Virus record (IMG/VR): IMGVR_UViG_3300044678_000925
Location: 1-28,058 of that record
Source: a virus
Reading direction: 5' to 3' (one strand)
Length of the DNA stretch: 28,058 nt
Under the pieces are notes generated by a model. The model did not search any database. It saw only the letters and a program-made list of their open reading frames with translations, and was not told the DNA's origin. The position numbers were made by a program, and so were the translations under genes. Positions 1 to 26,222 of the stretch are shown piece after piece (the first letter of the stretch is position 1; the number at the start of each line of letters is the position of its first letter).

Positions 1-38
1 TTGAAGACACCCTCGACCACGCTCTTTACGCTTTCCAT
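1..38 (-). CDS. Start of an unidentified gene, cut by the window edge
   Basis: An ATG at 38 opens a frame reading M-E-S-V-K-S-V-V-E-G-V-F that runs off the left edge of the window. No Shine-Dalgarno sequence precedes it. Instead a consensus promoter ends seven bases upstream, so the transcript would begin at or next to this ATG (a leaderless mRNA). Only 12 codons are visible and no function can be given. The main support is the fit between promoter and start codon; chance is the alternative. Confidence 0.5.
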   Translation of the reverse strand, partial: MESVKSVVEGVF

Positions 39-44
39 GGTCGG

Positions 45-73
45 AGTATACAGCCCCACGCGGGGCCTGTCAA
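45..73 (-). promoter_or_regulatory. Consensus sigma70-type promoter P1 with a palindrome in its spacer
   Basis: On the minus strand, TTGACA (73-68) is followed by exactly 17 nt and TATACT (50-45), a perfect -35 and a -10 with one mismatch. The spacer holds a GC-rich inverted repeat: CCCC and GGGG arms around GCGT, extended outwards as a bulged ACAG/CTGT pair (50-70). The expected start point is about position 38, the A of the next ATG. The promoter fills the gap between the epimerase stop and the next gene. The inverted repeat could be an operator or a weak hairpin; no T-run follows it, so it is not a standard terminator. Confidence 0.75.
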
Positions 74-2228: not shown

Positions 2229-3361
2229 TTGCCTTCGTACCTGCGTCCACGCCATGCGAGTGCAGATCCCGTCCACGAAGCGAAGTCAGCCTGCCACTCG
2301 CCTGCCTGCTCACCCCAGAGTTCAATGACTGAGAAGCCAGCCGACCATCGGCTGACCTGATGTTGCGCAAGGTACCCAAGTTCCGTGCGCTGGCACATCA
2401 TGCCCGTCGAGATGGCAACGATCTTTTTCTCTGGCAAGTCAGCAAATCCACCCACCGTTCGGAATGCCATACCCTGTGAGTGATCGTGCCCGCCGACAAC
2501 CGACACGCCCGCCGCTTCAGCGATAGGCAGGATCGATGCAGCGCCGCCCGAGTTGCGTGAGTACGTGCCATGCGTGGCGATAAGATCTGTCGTGATCTTG
2601 TAGTACGAACGTAGATGCTCTGGTCCGTTGAACACTGGCTGTTCGTCGAGGCACGACTGGATCCCCAGTGTGTCGAAGCGCAGCAGATTGGCCAACGAGA
2701 GCAACTCTACGCCATTGGCATCGACAAGGCCTACCAATTCAGGAGCCTTCTTTGCCAGCCACTTAGAGAAGCGGGCCTCGTGGTTTCCGTAGACAAACAA
2801 AATGCTCGCCTCTTTCCCAGCAGCAGCGCGGATTTCCGCGAGCCTTAGGTGAGCGCGAGCGAGTTCTTTCTGAACAGGGAGGCCGAGTCGTGGGTCCTTG
2901 TCGTACGAGGATACGCTAGTCAGGTCGAGGATATCTCCAGTGAGTACGATGCGGTCCGGACGCTCCGTTGCAAGGAACGTTAGGAATGCAGCGAAGACAT
3001 CACCGTCCTCGAATGGGAACTGGAAGTCGCCTGCGGCAACGACCAACTCGCCTCGGGTCAAGGAGGTAGGCTTCCCAACACGGGACAGGTACTTAACCTT
3101 CACAGGCTCCACTGGCTCAATGACATGTGGCACCCTTCCTAAGGAAGTATATATATTTCTATTATTAGAATTATCTACTTCCTTAGGAAGTACTCCCTTT
3201 GGAAGACTTCCAAGAGTATAACTGTTTTTTAACTGCTTGTCAAATCGTACGAAACGCTTCTGGGCTGCGTCCTTGGTCATGCCCAGCATCTTGCCAATCT
3301 GTGAGAACGAGAGGCCTTTGCCTCGGAGCATGGCGATATCGTTGTCGATATCTGAAGCCAT
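2225..3361 (-). CDS. Metallophosphoesterase with N-terminal helix-turn-helix
   Basis: This 378-aa protein has two parts. Residues about 5-40 form a helix-turn-helix of the kind in which a GKGLSFSQIGKMLG helix pair precedes a recognition helix (TKDAAQKRF). Residues about 105-300 are a calcineurin-like phosphoesterase: DFQFPF (112-117, where the family has DxH), GDILD (142-146), GNHE (192-195), H264 and GHDH (291-294). The first metal-binding His is Gln here. The 45-85 linker is low-complexity and Asn-rich; its DNA is AT-rich and holds a promoter and palindromes (separate entries). Start: ATG with AGGAGG 5 nt upstream. It heads the sugar-enzyme set. The substrate is unknown (nucleic acid, nucleotide or phosphoprotein). 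The HTH suggests DNA binding, possibly of its own gene. Confidence 0.8.
   Translation of the reverse strand: MASDIDNDIAMLRGKGLSFSQIGKMLGMTKDAAQKRFVRFDKQLKNSYTLGSLPKGVLPKEVDNSNNRNIYTSLGRVPHVIEPVEPVKVKYLSRVGKPTSLTRGELVVAAGDFQFPFEDGDVFAAFLTFLATERPDRIVLTGDILDLTSVSSYDKDPRLGLPVQKELARAHLRLAEIRAAAGKEASILFVYGNHEARFSKWLAKKAPELVGLVDANGVELLSLANLLRFDTLGIQSCLDEQPVFNGPEHLRSYYKITTDLIATHGTYSRNSGGAASILPIAEAAGVSVVGGHDHSQGMAFRTVGGFADLPEKKIVAISTGMMCQRTELGYLAQHQVSRWSAGFSVIELWGEQAGEWQADFASWTGSALAWRGRRYEGK
3133..3213 (-). repeat. Cluster of three GGAAG/CTTCC palindromes (putative operator)
   Basis: Three related inverted repeats lie inside the linker codons of the HTH-metallophosphoesterase. Site A is 3199-3213 (TTGGAAG, one base, CTTCCAA). 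Site B is 3176-3192 (TACTTCC, TTA, GGAAGTA). Site C is 3135-3147 (CTTCC, TAA, GGAAG). Centres are at 3206, 3184 and 3141, so the gaps of 22 and 43 nt are close to two and four helical turns. Sites B and C are also reverse complements over 15 nt (3135-3149 with 3176-3190), so the RNA could fold into a long hairpin around an AT-rich loop. Site A covers the predicted start point of promoter P3. An operator array or a structured 5' leader are both possible. Confidence 0.6.
3215..3243 (-). promoter_or_regulatory. Consensus promoter P3 inside the metallophosphoesterase gene
   Basis: On the minus strand, TTGACA (3243-3238), a 17-nt spacer containing six A residues, and TATACT (3220-3215). The -35, the -10 and the spacing are identical to P1. 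The predicted start is near 3208, at codon 52 of the gene and inside palindrome site A. It could drive the HAD, reductase and epimerase genes, or a shorter phosphoesterase lacking the HTH from an internal GTG or TTG. An exact match to another promoter in the same genome makes chance unlikely, but being within a reading frame lowers certainty. Confidence 0.65.
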
Positions 3362-8901: not shown

Positions 8902-8930
8902 ATTCTACCTGACTTTCCCCCCGGTGTCAA
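8902..8930 (-). promoter_or_regulatory. Consensus promoter P2 for the glycosyltransferase-tail operon
   Basis: On the minus strand, TTGACA (8930-8925), exactly 17 nt, and TAGAAT (8907-8902). The expected start is near 8895, giving a leader of about 33 nt with GGAGGA three bases before the ATG at 8862. It lies in the largest intergenic gap of the window, after the capsid gene, and so would allow the glycosyltransferase and tail genes to be expressed separately from the head genes. The -35 shares bases with the arm and loop of the strong hairpin at 8918-8943. Confidence 0.8.
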
Positions 8931-8943
8931 ACGACACCGGGGG
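8918..8943 (-). terminator. Strong 11-bp hairpin after the capsid gene (terminator-like)
   Basis: CCCCCGGTGTC (8918-8928) pairs perfectly with GACACCGGGGG (8933-8943) around a 4-nt loop, starting 20 nt after the capsid stop codon. In minus-strand RNA it is followed by GAAAGTCAGG, with no U-run, so it is not a classic intrinsic terminator. It could be a partial or factor-dependent terminator, a 3' end that protects the capsid mRNA, or a DNA operator, since P2's -35 lies within it. Confidence 0.55.
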
Positions 8944-17197: not shown

Positions 17198-19440
17198 TAG
17201 ACAATCTCCTCAGCGACTGGCGCTGCGTTCTCGGCTAGGGCGTTGGCCGGGGTGGCCTCTGCCGGTACCTGTGACTGGTTCTCTGCTTGGTTAAGCGACT
17301 GCGTACCAGCCGCTGGTGCTTGTAGTGTACGTGCCGTATTTGCTACGCTGGCCTGCTGCTGAGCGAACTGCTCGGCCGCTGCCTGCTGCTGCTGAAGTCC
17401 CATCTGCTGGAACATCTGCATCAGGTTGGCCATCGCCATCACGGACGACGGGTTGAGGGTTGCGTCGGTCTGCTCCTCGCGGATGACCATCATCTCGCCC
17501 TCTGGGTCCTCTACGCCCACACGGTCCATTGCGCGCTCCGCGCTCCAGACTCGGTTCTGGACGAGGTTGATTGCTGTCTGTGCCAGTTCGAGCGTGTCTC
17601 GTGGCGTCAGTTCTGGCGGGGTGATGTCGAGTCGGTAGTTGCCGTTGAAGACAAGTCCGACCTCTGGTTGCTTCTTCTCCCAGATCTGTGCGCACATCTT
17701 CCACGTCTGCTTGATCCACGAGTAGAGCAATTTGCGCTTTGGCGCAATGCGTGCCTCGTAGTTGGCAACGAGAGAAGCAATGGCACGAGACGATCCGAGC
17801 ACTCCCGACGGCGCAAGGCCGAGGAGGAGATCGTTCAGGCCCGTTACCACCGCGATCTCACGGTCGATACGGCGGTTGTAGTCTTCGATCTGGAACTGTG
17901 GAATGAACGGGGAGATCGGACGGATCTCGTTGCCAGGGCCAGGTGTTGCCATCTTGCCGGGCTTCGGGATTGCGTTTGGTGGTACCTCGTCAGGTGCCTC
18001 TGGCCCAACCAACTGGAACATCTGTCCGCCGATGACCGAGTGGATCATCTGCGCTTGGTTGGTGATACGCTCGTCCTTCTCGCGGAGCAACTGCTCCACG
18101 TCGTAGAGTTCTGGCTTGCCGTATGGGCTGCCAGGAACCTTAGCGTTCGCAAGGAGGACGTACGGGATCTCGCCATTGAACTCAGGGTGCGAGGTGTTCT
18201 TGACAACCGTGTTGCCGACGAGGATTGCATTGTAGACCGTCGGGGCCTTGCCCGGGGCTCCCGGAACCTTGTACCAGTAGTCGAACACTTCGACCTGCTG
18301 CATCTCGTATGGGGTCTCGCGTCGGAGCGGGTTGCGCTCGAACTGATTCTGGTAGACGTTGGCAATCGGGTCATCGTGTGTCGAGGCCGTGTAATTGTAC
18401 CACTTGCCGCCCTGCTGGGTGGCGACGACCTTGATGCCGTAGTCCTCTTCGACCGCCTGCGGGCTCATGCCGTAGGTGTAGAGAGCCCAGTCCAGTCGGC
18501 TGAAGTCGGACATGCCGAAGCCGAGATACAGGTTCTCTGGGGTCTGGACGATGCGGATGCGAGGAAGTTTTGCCTCGGCATCCCAGTAGATCTTGCCTGC
18601 GGTGTAACCGTAGAGGGACTTGATGAAGCAGGCATCTTCGAGCATGAGATCAAACTCATTCTCTTCTGCCCATCGGAAGAAGAGTCGCTCGGCATCAGCC
18701 GCAGCATCACGGTCCTCTGGGGCCTCACCGGCAGGGACGTAGTTGATAACCGGCATAACGGCTTGGAGCGATGCCGGGATGTTGACGTAGGCGGCGTGCA
18801 CGTTGACCGAGACGTGTGCTCGTCCCGCCGTGCGTGCCGTGGCGTCATCGGCCCAGTGGTCAGGACCACCGATGGTGATGACATTTGGGTGATAGAGATT
18901 GTCGAAGCGTCGGAACAGTGCTCGGAGTCGGTTCTGTTCTGGCTCTGCCGTCTGCTTTCGCATCAGCACTTCGCCGTAGAGCAGGTAGTTCTCGTCCTGT
19001 TCGGCTGGGATGTTCTGCATCGACAGCGACGTCTCAAGCAACTTGACCGATACGGCCTGAGCCTCAGTCAACTTCTTGACATCGAGTTTCTGGAATCGCT
19101 TGGCAAGCGGCTTACCCTGTCCGCCAGCGGAGGCGTTAACACGGGTCGGGCTAGTAGCAATAGCGGGGCCAGTAGCAGCAATGCCGCTGGTCGCCCCGGC
19201 TGGGGCTCGACGGGAGGAAGCGCCGGAAACCCCAGCCGGGGACGTAGAAGTCTTAAGTGGCGCACCACCGCCGAGCGGCTCATAAACCCGCTCTCCACGG
19301 CCAATTCGCTTGGCCTTATCAACAGCCTTGCCGATAGAGGCAATCTGTTCTGGGGTCGCTACATCTGGGTCAGTGGTGTACTGCCCCGGAATTGCTCGTG
19401 TCCCCTGAAATGCGCGGGGAACGCCTCGTACCTTAGCCAT
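17197..19440 (-). CDS. Portal protein
   Basis: This protein is 747 aa from the ATG at 19440, which overlaps the terminase stop (TGATG) with GGAG ten bases upstream; a TTG one codon earlier is less likely. The first 110 residues are Ala/Pro/Gly/Ser-rich and basic, probably disordered. The core (about 125-660) has the portal pattern: an early RALFRRFDNLYHP helix, VSVNVHAAYVNIPASLQAVMPVINYVP, an acidic-aromatic DAERLFFRWAEENEFDLMLEDACFIKSLYGY helix pair, and GYTAGKIYWD. Later come DVEQLLREKDERITNQAQMIHS and the LLLGLAPSGVLGSSRAIASL region typical of the stem and crown. The C-terminal 80 residues are Gln/Ala-rich. It is larger than the common 450-550-aa portals and nearer podovirus-type sizes. 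Position between terminase and head proteins agrees. Confidence 0.85.
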   Translation of the reverse strand: MAKVRGVPRAFQGTRAIPGQYTTDPDVATPEQIASIGKAVDKAKRIGRGERVYEPLGGGAPLKTSTSPAGVSGASSRRAPAGATSGIAATGPAIATSPTRVNASAGGQGKPLAKRFQKLDVKKLTEAQAVSVKLLETSLSMQNIPAEQDENYLLYGEVLMRKQTAEPEQNRLRALFRRFDNLYHPNVITIGGPDHWADDATARTAGRAHVSVNVHAAYVNIPASLQAVMPVINYVPAGEAPEDRDAAADAERLFFRWAEENEFDLMLEDACFIKSLYGYTAGKIYWDAEAKLPRIRIVQTPENLYLGFGMSDFSRLDWALYTYGMSPQAVEEDYGIKVVATQQGGKWYNYTASTHDDPIANVYQNQFERNPLRRETPYEMQQVEVFDYWYKVPGAPGKAPTVYNAILVGNTVVKNTSHPEFNGEIPYVLLANAKVPGSPYGKPELYDVEQLLREKDERITNQAQMIHSVIGGQMFQLVGPEAPDEVPPNAIPKPGKMATPGPGNEIRPISPFIPQFQIEDYNRRIDREIAVVTGLNDLLLGLAPSGVLGSSRAIASLVANYEARIAPKRKLLYSWIKQTWKMCAQIWEKKQPEVGLVFNGNYRLDITPPELTPRDTLELAQTAINLVQNRVWSAERAMDRVGVEDPEGEMMVIREEQTDATLNPSSVMAMANLMQMFQQMGLQQQQAAAEQFAQQQASVANTARTLQAPAAGTQSLNQAENQSQVPAEATPANALAENAAPVAEEIV

Positions 19441-23769: not shown

Positions 23770-24916
23770 GGCGGGTTTCCTTTCGGCTGCTACGGGGTTT
23801 GCCCATTCCATCGCCGCCACCCCCTCCACCACCACCTCCGCCGCCGCTGGGTGTGCCACCCATTGATCGGACCGCTGATGCTGCCGCTGAACTAGCAATC
23901 TGACTTGCGACAATTGCCGCCGCGACTGGCTGCGCTTCTTCTTTTTCTTCTACGTCGAGATCGTTACCAATCTCTGTGATTGCCGCGAGGTTATCAAAAA
24001 CCTCTGCAACTGCTTCTGCCGCTGCCTCGGCTGCTTCCCCAAACGCTTCCGCAACTGCCTCAACGGCCTCGTCTACACTTGGCAGTTCGTCAGTTGGCTC
24101 AGGAGAAGGGTCAATGCTAGGCTCAGGCTCAGGACTAGGCTCGTCAGTAGGATCAGGACTCGGCTCAGGTTCCTCTGAAGGCTCTGGCTCGGGCGTCTCT
24201 TCGGGCTCGGGGGTCGGCTCTGGTTCTTCACTTGGCTCCGGCTCTACCGAGGGCTCAGGTTCTGGAGTCGGTTCAGGAGTTGGATCAGGAGTTGGCTCTG
24301 GCGTAGGCTCCGGAGTCGGCTGAGGCGTCGGAGTAGGTTCCGGCGTCGGCGTCGGCTCGGGCGTAGGCTCTGGCGTTGGGCTCGGCTCTGGAGTTGGATC
24401 AATTGGCGGCTCCGAACTTGGCTCTGGTGTGGGTGCTGGCGTAGGACCTACGACCCACGTGGTGTTGTTGATTTGGAGGAATCCTGCTCCACAACAAGAG
24501 TCGATGCTTATAATTCGGAATCCAAAGATACCGCCAGCGGCGATATAGACAGTCTGCACGCCACTCTGCTGGAGAGGGTTGTATCCGCCCTGATTCCAAA
24601 TAGCAAGGTCAATCCAACTCTCGTCAAGCAGCATCTGTGCCTTGTCGTAAAACACGCCGTCGGTTGTCCAGTATGACCAGTCAAACGATACGGTTTCTCC
24701 AAGGGATGAGTCTGTTGTTAGTCCAGTTACCGTGTTCTGCCACGGGTACCCTGGACCTGCGTTGTTAGATCCTTGAATTAGGATGGTCCCATCGGTTAGT
24801 GTGATGGTCCCGTTGCTGTCGATCTGCTGATCCCACTCGTCCGTGTCCTCAAGGGCGAGTGCGCCCATCGGAGAAAGAAGCAGTGTCAAGGCTAAAATGG
24901 CTGCAAGCCTTACCAC
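23762..24916 (-). CDS. Exported modular protein: beta domain, Pro-Glu rod, hydrophobic helix, Gly tract
   Basis: This 384-aa protein is not a family I recognise. Residues 1-22 are a signal peptide (RLAAILALTLLLSPMGALA, likely cleavage after an Ala near 20-22). Residues 25-155 form a probable beta-sandwich with many aromatic and Thr/Ser residues and a CC pair (141-142). Residues 158-278 are PTPEP/PEPS-type repeats, a stiff rod. Residues 280-330 are an acidic Ala/Glu helix. Residues 330-352 are hydrophobic (PVAAAIVASQIASSAAASAV). Then come a run of Gly (358-368) and a basic tail (RSSRKETRRV). GTG start with AAAGGAG six bases upstream. It lies between fibre and lysis genes. It could be a surface-exposed protein anchored by its C-terminal helix (exclusion, aggregation) or a late envelope-lysis factor. 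Confidence 0.7.
   Translation of the reverse strand: MVRLAAILALTLLLSPMGALALEDTDEWDQQIDSNGTITLTDGTILIQGSNNAGPGYPWQNTVTGLTTDSSLGETVSFDWSYWTTDGVFYDKAQMLLDESWIDLAIWNQGGYNPLQQSGVQTVYIAAGGIFGFRIISIDSCCGAGFLQINNTTWVVGPTPAPTPEPSSEPPIDPTPEPSPTPEPTPEPTPTPEPTPTPQPTPEPTPEPTPDPTPEPTPEPEPSVEPEPSEEPEPTPEPEETPEPEPSEEPEPSPDPTDEPSPEPEPSIDPSPEPTDELPSVDEAVEAVAEAFGEAAEAAAEAVAEVFDNLAAITEIGNDLDVEEKEEAQPVAAAIVASQIASSAAASAVRSMGGTPSGGGGGGGGGGGDGMGKPRSSRKETRRV
24083..24445 (-). repeat. Pro-Glu-Pro coding repeat tract
   Basis: About 120 codons of imperfect 6-12-nt repeats encode P-T-P-E-P, P-E-P-S and P-E-E-T units. On the plus strand the text reads as repeated GGCTC/GGTTC/GGAGT blocks. The first half favours Thr-Pro units and the second half adds Ser and more Glu. 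Such a tract is prone to length change by replication slippage. Confidence 0.85.
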
Positions 24917-24969
24917 AATTGGCTCCTTTCTAGATTAACATCCGCAATCCTGCTCTACTTCTTCCATCG

Positions 24970-25239
24970 TCACTCAGGCGTCTCTTCTGGTGCTGGTGGA
25001 GGCGCGGTGACTACCTCTTGATTTGGGTTTGAGAACGTTGTCCCGTCCCAGTCCCAGCCTTCTGCTGGGTTCTGCCCAGGATATTCAGAAAGATCTACTA
25101 GGGTAAAGTCGTTTCCGAACTTCGCCTTGACCGATCCGTCGTAAGACGCTGGCAGATCAAAGAACTCTCTGTCTGCCACGGCGCATAGTTTGACCTTTCC
25201 GTCAACAACTACTGCCCATTCTTTAACTACTCCTGCCAT
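24970..25239 (-). CDS. Small fibre-associated protein with acidic Pro-rich tail
   Basis: This 89-aa protein has strands at the start (VKEWAVVVDGKVKLCAVADREFF), a middle with several aromatic and Asp residues (YPGQNPAEGWDWDGTTF), and a tail of Pro and Glu (APPPAPEETPE). The phrase GWxWDGTxF is common in short proteins next to phage tail fibres, possibly tail-fibre assembly or capping factors. Start: ATG with GGAGGTAAC immediately before it, overlapping the glycine-rich fibre gene by 13 nt. The 85-aa protein at 26752 holds the same place behind the other fibre and has a similar tail, but the two do not look homologous. Confidence 0.6.
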   Translation of the reverse strand: MAGVVKEWAVVVDGKVKLCAVADREFFDLPASYDGSVKAKFGNDFTLVDLSEYPGQNPAEGWDWDGTTFSNPNQEVVTAPPPAPEETPE

Positions 25240-26222
25240 GTTACCTCCAGGTACCCGCTACCGCCGTTTCCTCCTGCTGCAGTTCCTGTGTTGGTGTGCC
25301 CCGCACATGACCCTCCACCGCCAGCACCAGTATTTGCAACTCCATTTGTACCGTTATAAAGTGCGGAAGTTGTTGTAGTAACTAGTGGCGCATGAGCAAA
25401 ATCTATTCTTCCCGCCGAGGGATGAATAAAAGCAGAATTTTCAAATCCTGTATAGTCAGCGAAGTTAGAAGCCAATACAGTGGCTCCCCCAGATCCAAGA
25501 CCCTTCCATGGAAGCCCTGGCAAAAATTGTGTCATGAGACTCATTGCCCCAAAAGGTGATTCATGTCTACGAATTCTTGCATATGCTGTTGTTGCGCTTC
25601 TGGCTGGATAATGAATTCCTGCTACATTGCTTCCAGAGGCTCCGTTATGTGAAACTGCTGGAATTGTAACTACTCCATATCCATTTTGAACCTGCATTGC
25701 AAATACAGTATGACCTCCCGCCGTGGTAAATGTAGTAATGATTGAACTTGCGGCTCCGTTTCCAGGACCTGAACCTGTGGCAGTGCCGTCAGATGCAAAC
25801 CCACCCATAGATCCACCAGGATTTGAAGTTGGCTTTACTGCTGTGCTTGTTGCAGTGTTTAATGTTGACCCACCCTGTCCGCCAGGGGCAGTCATAATTG
25901 AACCAAATGTGGTATCTGTTCCATTTGCTCCAGCGGCTGTTGTGGTGTTGGCGCCTGCTCCGCCAGTACCAATTGTTACGGTGTACGTTGTTCCAGGAAC
26001 AACCTGAAGAAGTTCATCAAAAACTCCACCGCCGCCACCGCCACCGCCGTGAGTAAGGTTGGTGGAAGTGGCAGACCTAGCGGCGCCGCCACCGCCACCG
26101 CCGCCAACAGCAAGTGCCTGGATGCAAAATACTCCAGCAGGTGCGGTCCACGAACCAGATGCGGTAAACCGTGCAACTCGGATCCTTCCAGATCCAGTCT
26201 GTAGATTATTATTAACGCTCAT
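25227..26222 (-). CDS. Glycine-rich tail fibre/adhesin protein, copy 2
   Basis: This 331-aa protein starts with a short N terminus (1-20), then a domain beginning FTASGSWTAPAGV followed by Gly-rich stretches with VPGTTYTVTIGTGGAG and GTDTTFGSIMTAPGG (about 20-125). Residues about 150-290 are a non-glycine insert with many His, Tyr and Phe (IHYPARSATTAYARIRRHESPF). Gly-rich sequence returns at the end (GGNGGSGYLEVTWQE). This resembles Gly-rich adhesin domains at phage fibre tips, where Gly-rich loops form a polyglycine-helix sandwich. It is clearly a paralogue of the protein at 27013: the domain opening, the VxPGTxYTxTIG strand and the final GGSGxxxxTWxE agree. The insert is unique to this copy. 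AGGAG precedes the ATG. Confidence 0.75.
   Translation of the reverse strand: MSVNNNLQTGSGRIRVARFTASGSWTAPAGVFCIQALAVGGGGGGGAARSATSTNLTHGGGGGGGGVFDELLQVVPGTTYTVTIGTGGAGANTTTAAGANGTDTTFGSIMTAPGGQGGSTLNTATSTAVKPTSNPGGSMGGFASDGTATGSGPGNGAASSIITTFTTAGGHTVFAMQVQNGYGVVTIPAVSHNGASGSNVAGIHYPARSATTAYARIRRHESPFGAMSLMTQFLPGLPWKGLGSGGATVLASNFADYTGFENSAFIHPSAGRIDFAHAPLVTTTTSALYNGTNGVANTGAGGGGSCAGHTNTGTAAGGNGGSGYLEVTWQE

Follow-up and report, generated by a model that had tools for sequence, protein, structure and literature searches.

The exonuclease gene of an uncultured phage very probably yields a leaderless mRNA: its promoter, P1, would place the first transcribed base on the A of the ATG, and the transcript would continue into the gene for an Erf annealing protein and further small genes. 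P1 lies near one end of IMGVR_UViG_3300044678_000925, a metagenomic phage contig of 28,058 bases, which was analysed over its full length and is called the window throughout; its main genes are encoded on the minus strand. Leaderless initiation at this gene is well supported by sequence comparison. The case is comparative and goes beyond the positional one, since the start geometry is held among relatives while the intervening bases change.

Promoter P1 and the start of the exonuclease gene

P1 is a near-consensus sigma-70/SigA-type promoter that matches the consensus at 11 of 12 positions. On the minus strand it comprises the −35 element TTGACA (68-73), a spacer of 17 nt (51-67) and the −10 element TATACT (45-50), which is separated by six nucleotides (44-39) from the ATG at 38-36. 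As the last base of the −10 element stands at −7, the expected +1 coincides with the A at position 38, the first base of the start codon. This is the layout that a preliminary description of the window had proposed, and the elements were found exactly there. The first T of the −10 element lies 12 bp 5′ of the start codon, and a TANNNT motif about 12 bp 5′ of the start is described in PMC3160421 as a mark of leaderless bacterial genes.

No Shine-Dalgarno (SD) sequence precedes the ATG at 38; the best match within 22 nt is GTG, 18 nt away. By comparison, 13 of 22 gene starts in the window, the exonuclease start counted, carry an SD match of at least five bases at a spacing of 3-8, a provisional count because we picked the 22 starts from the list of open reading frames. 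This agrees with the earlier observation that the gene differs in this respect from most genes of the window. The whole window contains 11 promoter-like sites, three of which score 11/12, all three on the gene strand, as against a mean of 0.1 such sites in 150 dinucleotide shuffles. Sites at 11/12 with an ATG or GTG 5-7 nt behind the −10 element numbered 0.007 on average in the shuffles and one in the window. Because this geometry is so rare in shuffled sequence, P1 is not a chance pattern.

The exonuclease opens a recombination operon

The contig end cuts the gene after its first 12 codons (1-38, minus strand). Extension to the left, which had been suggested as a check, identified it: two longer contigs, which share 96.9% identity with the window across 5,048 bases and do not differ from each other in the 8,972 bases aligned between them, continue past the window end. 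The preliminary description had named two outcomes that would speak against the gene, and neither was found. Instead of closing within a few codons, the frame from the ATG at 38 stays open for 225 codons (5011-5688 in contig L002), and the N-terminus is conserved from this ATG onwards, which speaks against a true start further downstream with its own ribosome site. The frame encodes a predicted Cas4-like PD-(D/E)XK exonuclease, with profile matches to PF12705 (8.8e-7), phrog_1706 (5.2e-23) and the Cas4-domain exonuclease family phrog_1990 (1.7e-13). Residues D98, E112, K114, Q135, Y139, C32, C212, C215 and C221 are invariant in 11/11 alignment rows; we take GNID...EFK...Q-x3-Y to be the catalytic motif and the four cysteines to be iron-sulphur residues. 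No related solved structure was found by sequence, and the only named phage record matching the exonuclease was Roseobacter phage CRP-13, at 26% identity.

The next gene codes for an Erf annealing protein (ERF PF04404, 1.4e-13; phrog_155, 1.1e-25). It adjoins the exonuclease gene with a 4-base overlap, and the two form a predicted recombination operon behind the structural and sugar genes. Phage Cas4-like exonuclease and Erf genes are known as the families phrog_1706/1990 and phrog_155, both of which are matched here; what sets the window's group apart is the probable leaderless start. On the minus strand, structural genes are followed by a metallophosphoesterase gene, sugar genes, a nucleotide-sugar epimerase gene (74-1048, assigned from the reading-frame list and family matches) and the exonuclease start. 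The structural labels are our own reading, except for the capsid gene, which has database matches. The epimerase stop codon (76-74) directly adjoins the −35 element of P1. A frame of epimerase size (more than 200 amino acids) ends just 5′ of the exonuclease in 9 of 10 further loci and in both of the groups described below, the exception being L016; in the distant group, the upstream frames look like epimerase by eye. The gene had been placed at the end of a structural region, which is correct in that the exonuclease opens the recombination module after the structural and sugar genes. In the related contig G001, a helicase-like frame (24233-25549, minus strand), DnaB by our reading, faces the recombination operon, so that two gene blocks seem to converge.

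Database searches pointed to no close phage and to no close host. An alignment search of genome contigs with the exonuclease gave no confirmed relative, and the same search with the epimerase gave a single match, at 28%, to an uncultured Pelagibacteraceae record. Two structural genes, read as terminase and portal, matched no phage record, and the capsid gene matched 40 distant records, mostly of Bacillus, Streptomyces and unnamed phages. No tRNA genes were detected in the window or in the 14 loci scanned, and the literature search yielded nothing that we recognised on this phage group.

The start geometry is conserved while the intervening sequence diverges

The promoter was compared in 11 close loci, the window included, which represent seven distinct sequences. 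Among these relatives, all from viral contigs, protein identity to the window's exonuclease is 67-76%, and L075/L076 are 80% identical to L011. Each of the 11 loci has TTGAC(A/G), a spacer of 17-18 nt, TANNCT, exactly six nucleotides beginning with CC, and then the start codon, which is ATG in ten and GTG in one (L009). Inspection of the sequences revealed no SD sequence before the start in the close loci. In an alignment of six loci, TTGAC, the TA of the −10 element, CTCC and the TG of the start codon are invariant, and not a single column is invariant between TTGAC and that TA. Conservation of the protein begins at the ATG at 38, which aligns with the first codon of orthologues preceded by an SD sequence. 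A leaderless start needs the distance from promoter to start codon to stay fixed even when the intervening bases change, as they do here; a promoter serving an ordinary leader would have no need of such constancy. The proposed leaderless mRNA is thus supported by a geometry kept in 11/11 loci (seven sequences), a diverged spacer and a start that aligns with those of SD-led orthologues. The GTG of L009 is consistent with this reading, as PMC4633059 names ATG and GTG as the only codons at which leaderless translation begins in mycobacteria.

A palindrome, CTCCAT-N2-ATGGAG, spans the expected start point in L006, L008 and L010 (around base 3001), where it is possibly a regulator site at +1. The corresponding bases of the window show no more than CTCC...GGAA.

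The palindrome in the spacer is probably incidental

A GC-rich inverted repeat in the P1 spacer had been proposed as the site of a repressor. The repeat itself is exact (GCCCC-N4-GGGGC at 53-66, five pairs), although modest, as a stem of this length arises in 6.3% of shuffles that keep the composition of the spacer. We compared the seven distinct spacers of the close loci, six by script and the seventh (L075/L076) by eye. Stems of at least 4 bp are present in three of them, with a different sequence in each: besides the window, L010 holds GCAGA-N4-TCTGC (a stem as long in 1.7% of shuffles) and L011 holds GCAG-N4-CTGC (8.1%). The spacers of L006/L007, L008 and L009 contain no 4-bp stem when G-T pairs are disallowed, and none was seen in that of L075/L076. 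The palindrome is most likely incidental to the window's lineage.

Since three of seven spacers hold some stem, a structural role retains a small probability: in readthrough transcripts the palindrome would fold into a hairpin, similar to a 3′ end or terminator, that insulates P1 and is kept in shape rather than in sequence. Such a role would fit the differing stems that three lineages have at this position, and also the RNA of L010, which folds better than most of its shuffles (z −2.05, 9/200 shuffles as good), and the window's other intergenic promoter overlaps a hairpin too. Nevertheless, the fold is unexceptional elsewhere (z −0.76 in the window, −0.02 in L009, −0.27 in L008, +1.11 in L006 and −0.69 in L075), no U-run follows the stem and not all lineages have one, which makes an insulating hairpin unlikely. 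An intrinsic terminator at 53-66 was rejected: the terminator scan did not report one, there is no U-run, and the fold is no better than that of shuffles.

The original proposal, an operator at which the dimer of a phage or host repressor would block polymerase at P1, is rather less probable still. Operators inside promoters are known from temperate phages, and the stoperators of L5-type phages contain TGTCAA. P1 resembles the former in having a palindrome within the promoter and the latter in that the reverse strand of its −35 element reads TGTCAA; it differs from both in lacking repeated copies and in a palindrome that is not conserved. The exact repeat of the window and the inverted repeats in L010 and L011 speak for an operator. 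Against it, each lineage has another sequence, and four of the seven distinct spacers have no 4-bp stem. A search for the palindrome elsewhere, which had been recommended, found one further exact copy in the window, at 19193-19206 inside a coding region, and none at another promoter. As the sequence is not kept, 6.3% of shuffles do as well and no other promoter of the window has a copy, we do not read the palindrome as an operator, and the suggestion that the gene is repressible through it is not upheld. Some regulator may still act on P1. Repeated sites of the stoperator kind were also rejected, as a 15-base stretch of the promoter was found once at up to three mismatches, with 1.04 expected.

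Probable leaderless initiation and its consequences

That P1 is an ordinary promoter with the ATG at +1 by coincidence, translation proceeding from a longer RNA or beginning at a later codon that has its own ribosome site, is very improbable: more distant orthologues do use a leader with an SD sequence, but the 6-nt distance is kept in every close locus, protein conservation starts at the codon at 38, and the shuffles almost never produce such geometry.

For a leaderless start, we envisage that host RNA polymerase would read P1 and begin the RNA at the A of the ATG, and that ribosomes would initiate on this 5′-terminal codon without an SD interaction. The transcript would run on into the gene for the single-strand annealing protein Erf and then into further small genes. 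In readthrough RNA from the upstream genes, this ATG would be internal and have no ribosome site, so that the nuclease would come mainly from P1 RNA. Dependence of nuclease synthesis on P1 would set the recombination genes apart from the structural transcript. The distance from epimerase stop to exonuclease start is 35-42 nt in the close group, and some translation of the exonuclease from readthrough RNA may occur across this gap. P1 illustrates how a phage could tie its nuclease to one promoter. For annotation, it follows that a ribosome site should not be demanded for the exonuclease start.

In hosts that make use of leaderless mRNA, such an arrangement is nothing unusual. Leaderless genes of Actinobacteria, Deinococcus-Thermus and other groups, as described in PMC3160421 and PMC4633059, share with P1 the TANNNT about 12 bp 5′ of an ATG or GTG and the absence of an SD sequence. 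P1 differs from these in belonging to an uncultured phage and in having a nearly consensus −35 element as well. According to PMC3160421, genes that share an ancestor have in some cases switched their mode of initiation. Since leaderless genes are common in several bacterial phyla and such changes have been published, P1 serves well as an example of a phenomenon already known.

Distant orthologues carry a structured leader

Counted against the leaderless reading is that more distant orthologues, with 44-50% identity to the window's exonuclease, are not leaderless: their start is SD-led. In these, a hairpin of 12-14 bp lies just before the exonuclease start. It was examined in 25 loci (L041-L065), of which 18 remained once duplicates in the upstream sequence had been removed; they fall into subgroups of 6 and 11, with L064 fitting neither. 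In one subgroup (five distinct stems), 60/60 cells pair and 8 of 12 positions have changed on both sides; in the other, 65/65 cells pair and 3 of 13 positions have changed on both sides. Because the stems were chosen as the best perfect hairpins, full pairing is given by construction and the two-sided changes alone count as evidence.

The hairpin loop (ACCTCC or GGTCTC) has complementarity to the SD region or to the bases immediately preceding it (GGAGGT or GAGACY). Complementary runs average 8.25 and 6.45 inside the subgroups, as compared with 5.30 and 5.00 across them. Tested against shuffles of their own downstream sequence, 3 of 18 rows (L041, L042 and L043) reach P <0.05, and L064 fails the loop-complementarity test. 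Rfam at gathering thresholds gave no match in the window or in 13 loci, the ten searched from the distant group among them. A pseudoknot controlling exonuclease synthesis in the distant group is plausible from these sequences. Phage T4 gene 32 has a pseudoknot of its own. We regard this gene (PMC535899) as an analogue of the proposed control.

With somewhat more doubt than confidence, we suggest that one gene family has two opposite designs of initiation behind the same epimerase, one without any leader and one with a leader whose hairpin of 12-14 bp presents a loop complementary to the SD region; the latter would be a new regulatory RNA that tunes exonuclease-Erf synthesis. Leaderless and structured-leader orthologues side by side make the change of initiation mode directly testable within one gene family.

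Further promoters in the window and its relatives

The other two strong promoters of the window are also on the minus strand. One, TTGACA-N17-TAGAAT at 8902-8943, stands behind the capsid gene, with its −35 element inside a perfect hairpin of 11 bp, the only perfect stem of at least 10 bp (loop 3-12) in the window. The hairpin is present in all seven close-group contigs that were fetched (G001-G006 and G008) and shows a compensatory G-C/A-T change between the window and G001 on one side and the other contigs on the other. These other contigs mostly have a further C-rich stretch in the spacer, which could compete for the G-run. No U-run follows the hairpin, and the next gene has an SD sequence and a leader of about 33 nt.

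The second, TTGACA-N17-TATACT at 3135-3243, is located within the coding frame of the metallophosphoesterase, where an AT-rich linker contains inverted repeats of the CTTCCTAAGGAAG type. Relatives, too, have promoter-like hexamers and variants of the repeat, and the region may serve as an internal promoter, as an operator region or as an origin.

Promoter sequences matching at 12/12 positions, which are absent from the promoter-like sites of the window, occur opposite the structural-gene strand in contigs G002 (19201, minus strand) and G005 (22405, plus strand), and that of G002 has an inverted repeat in its spacer.
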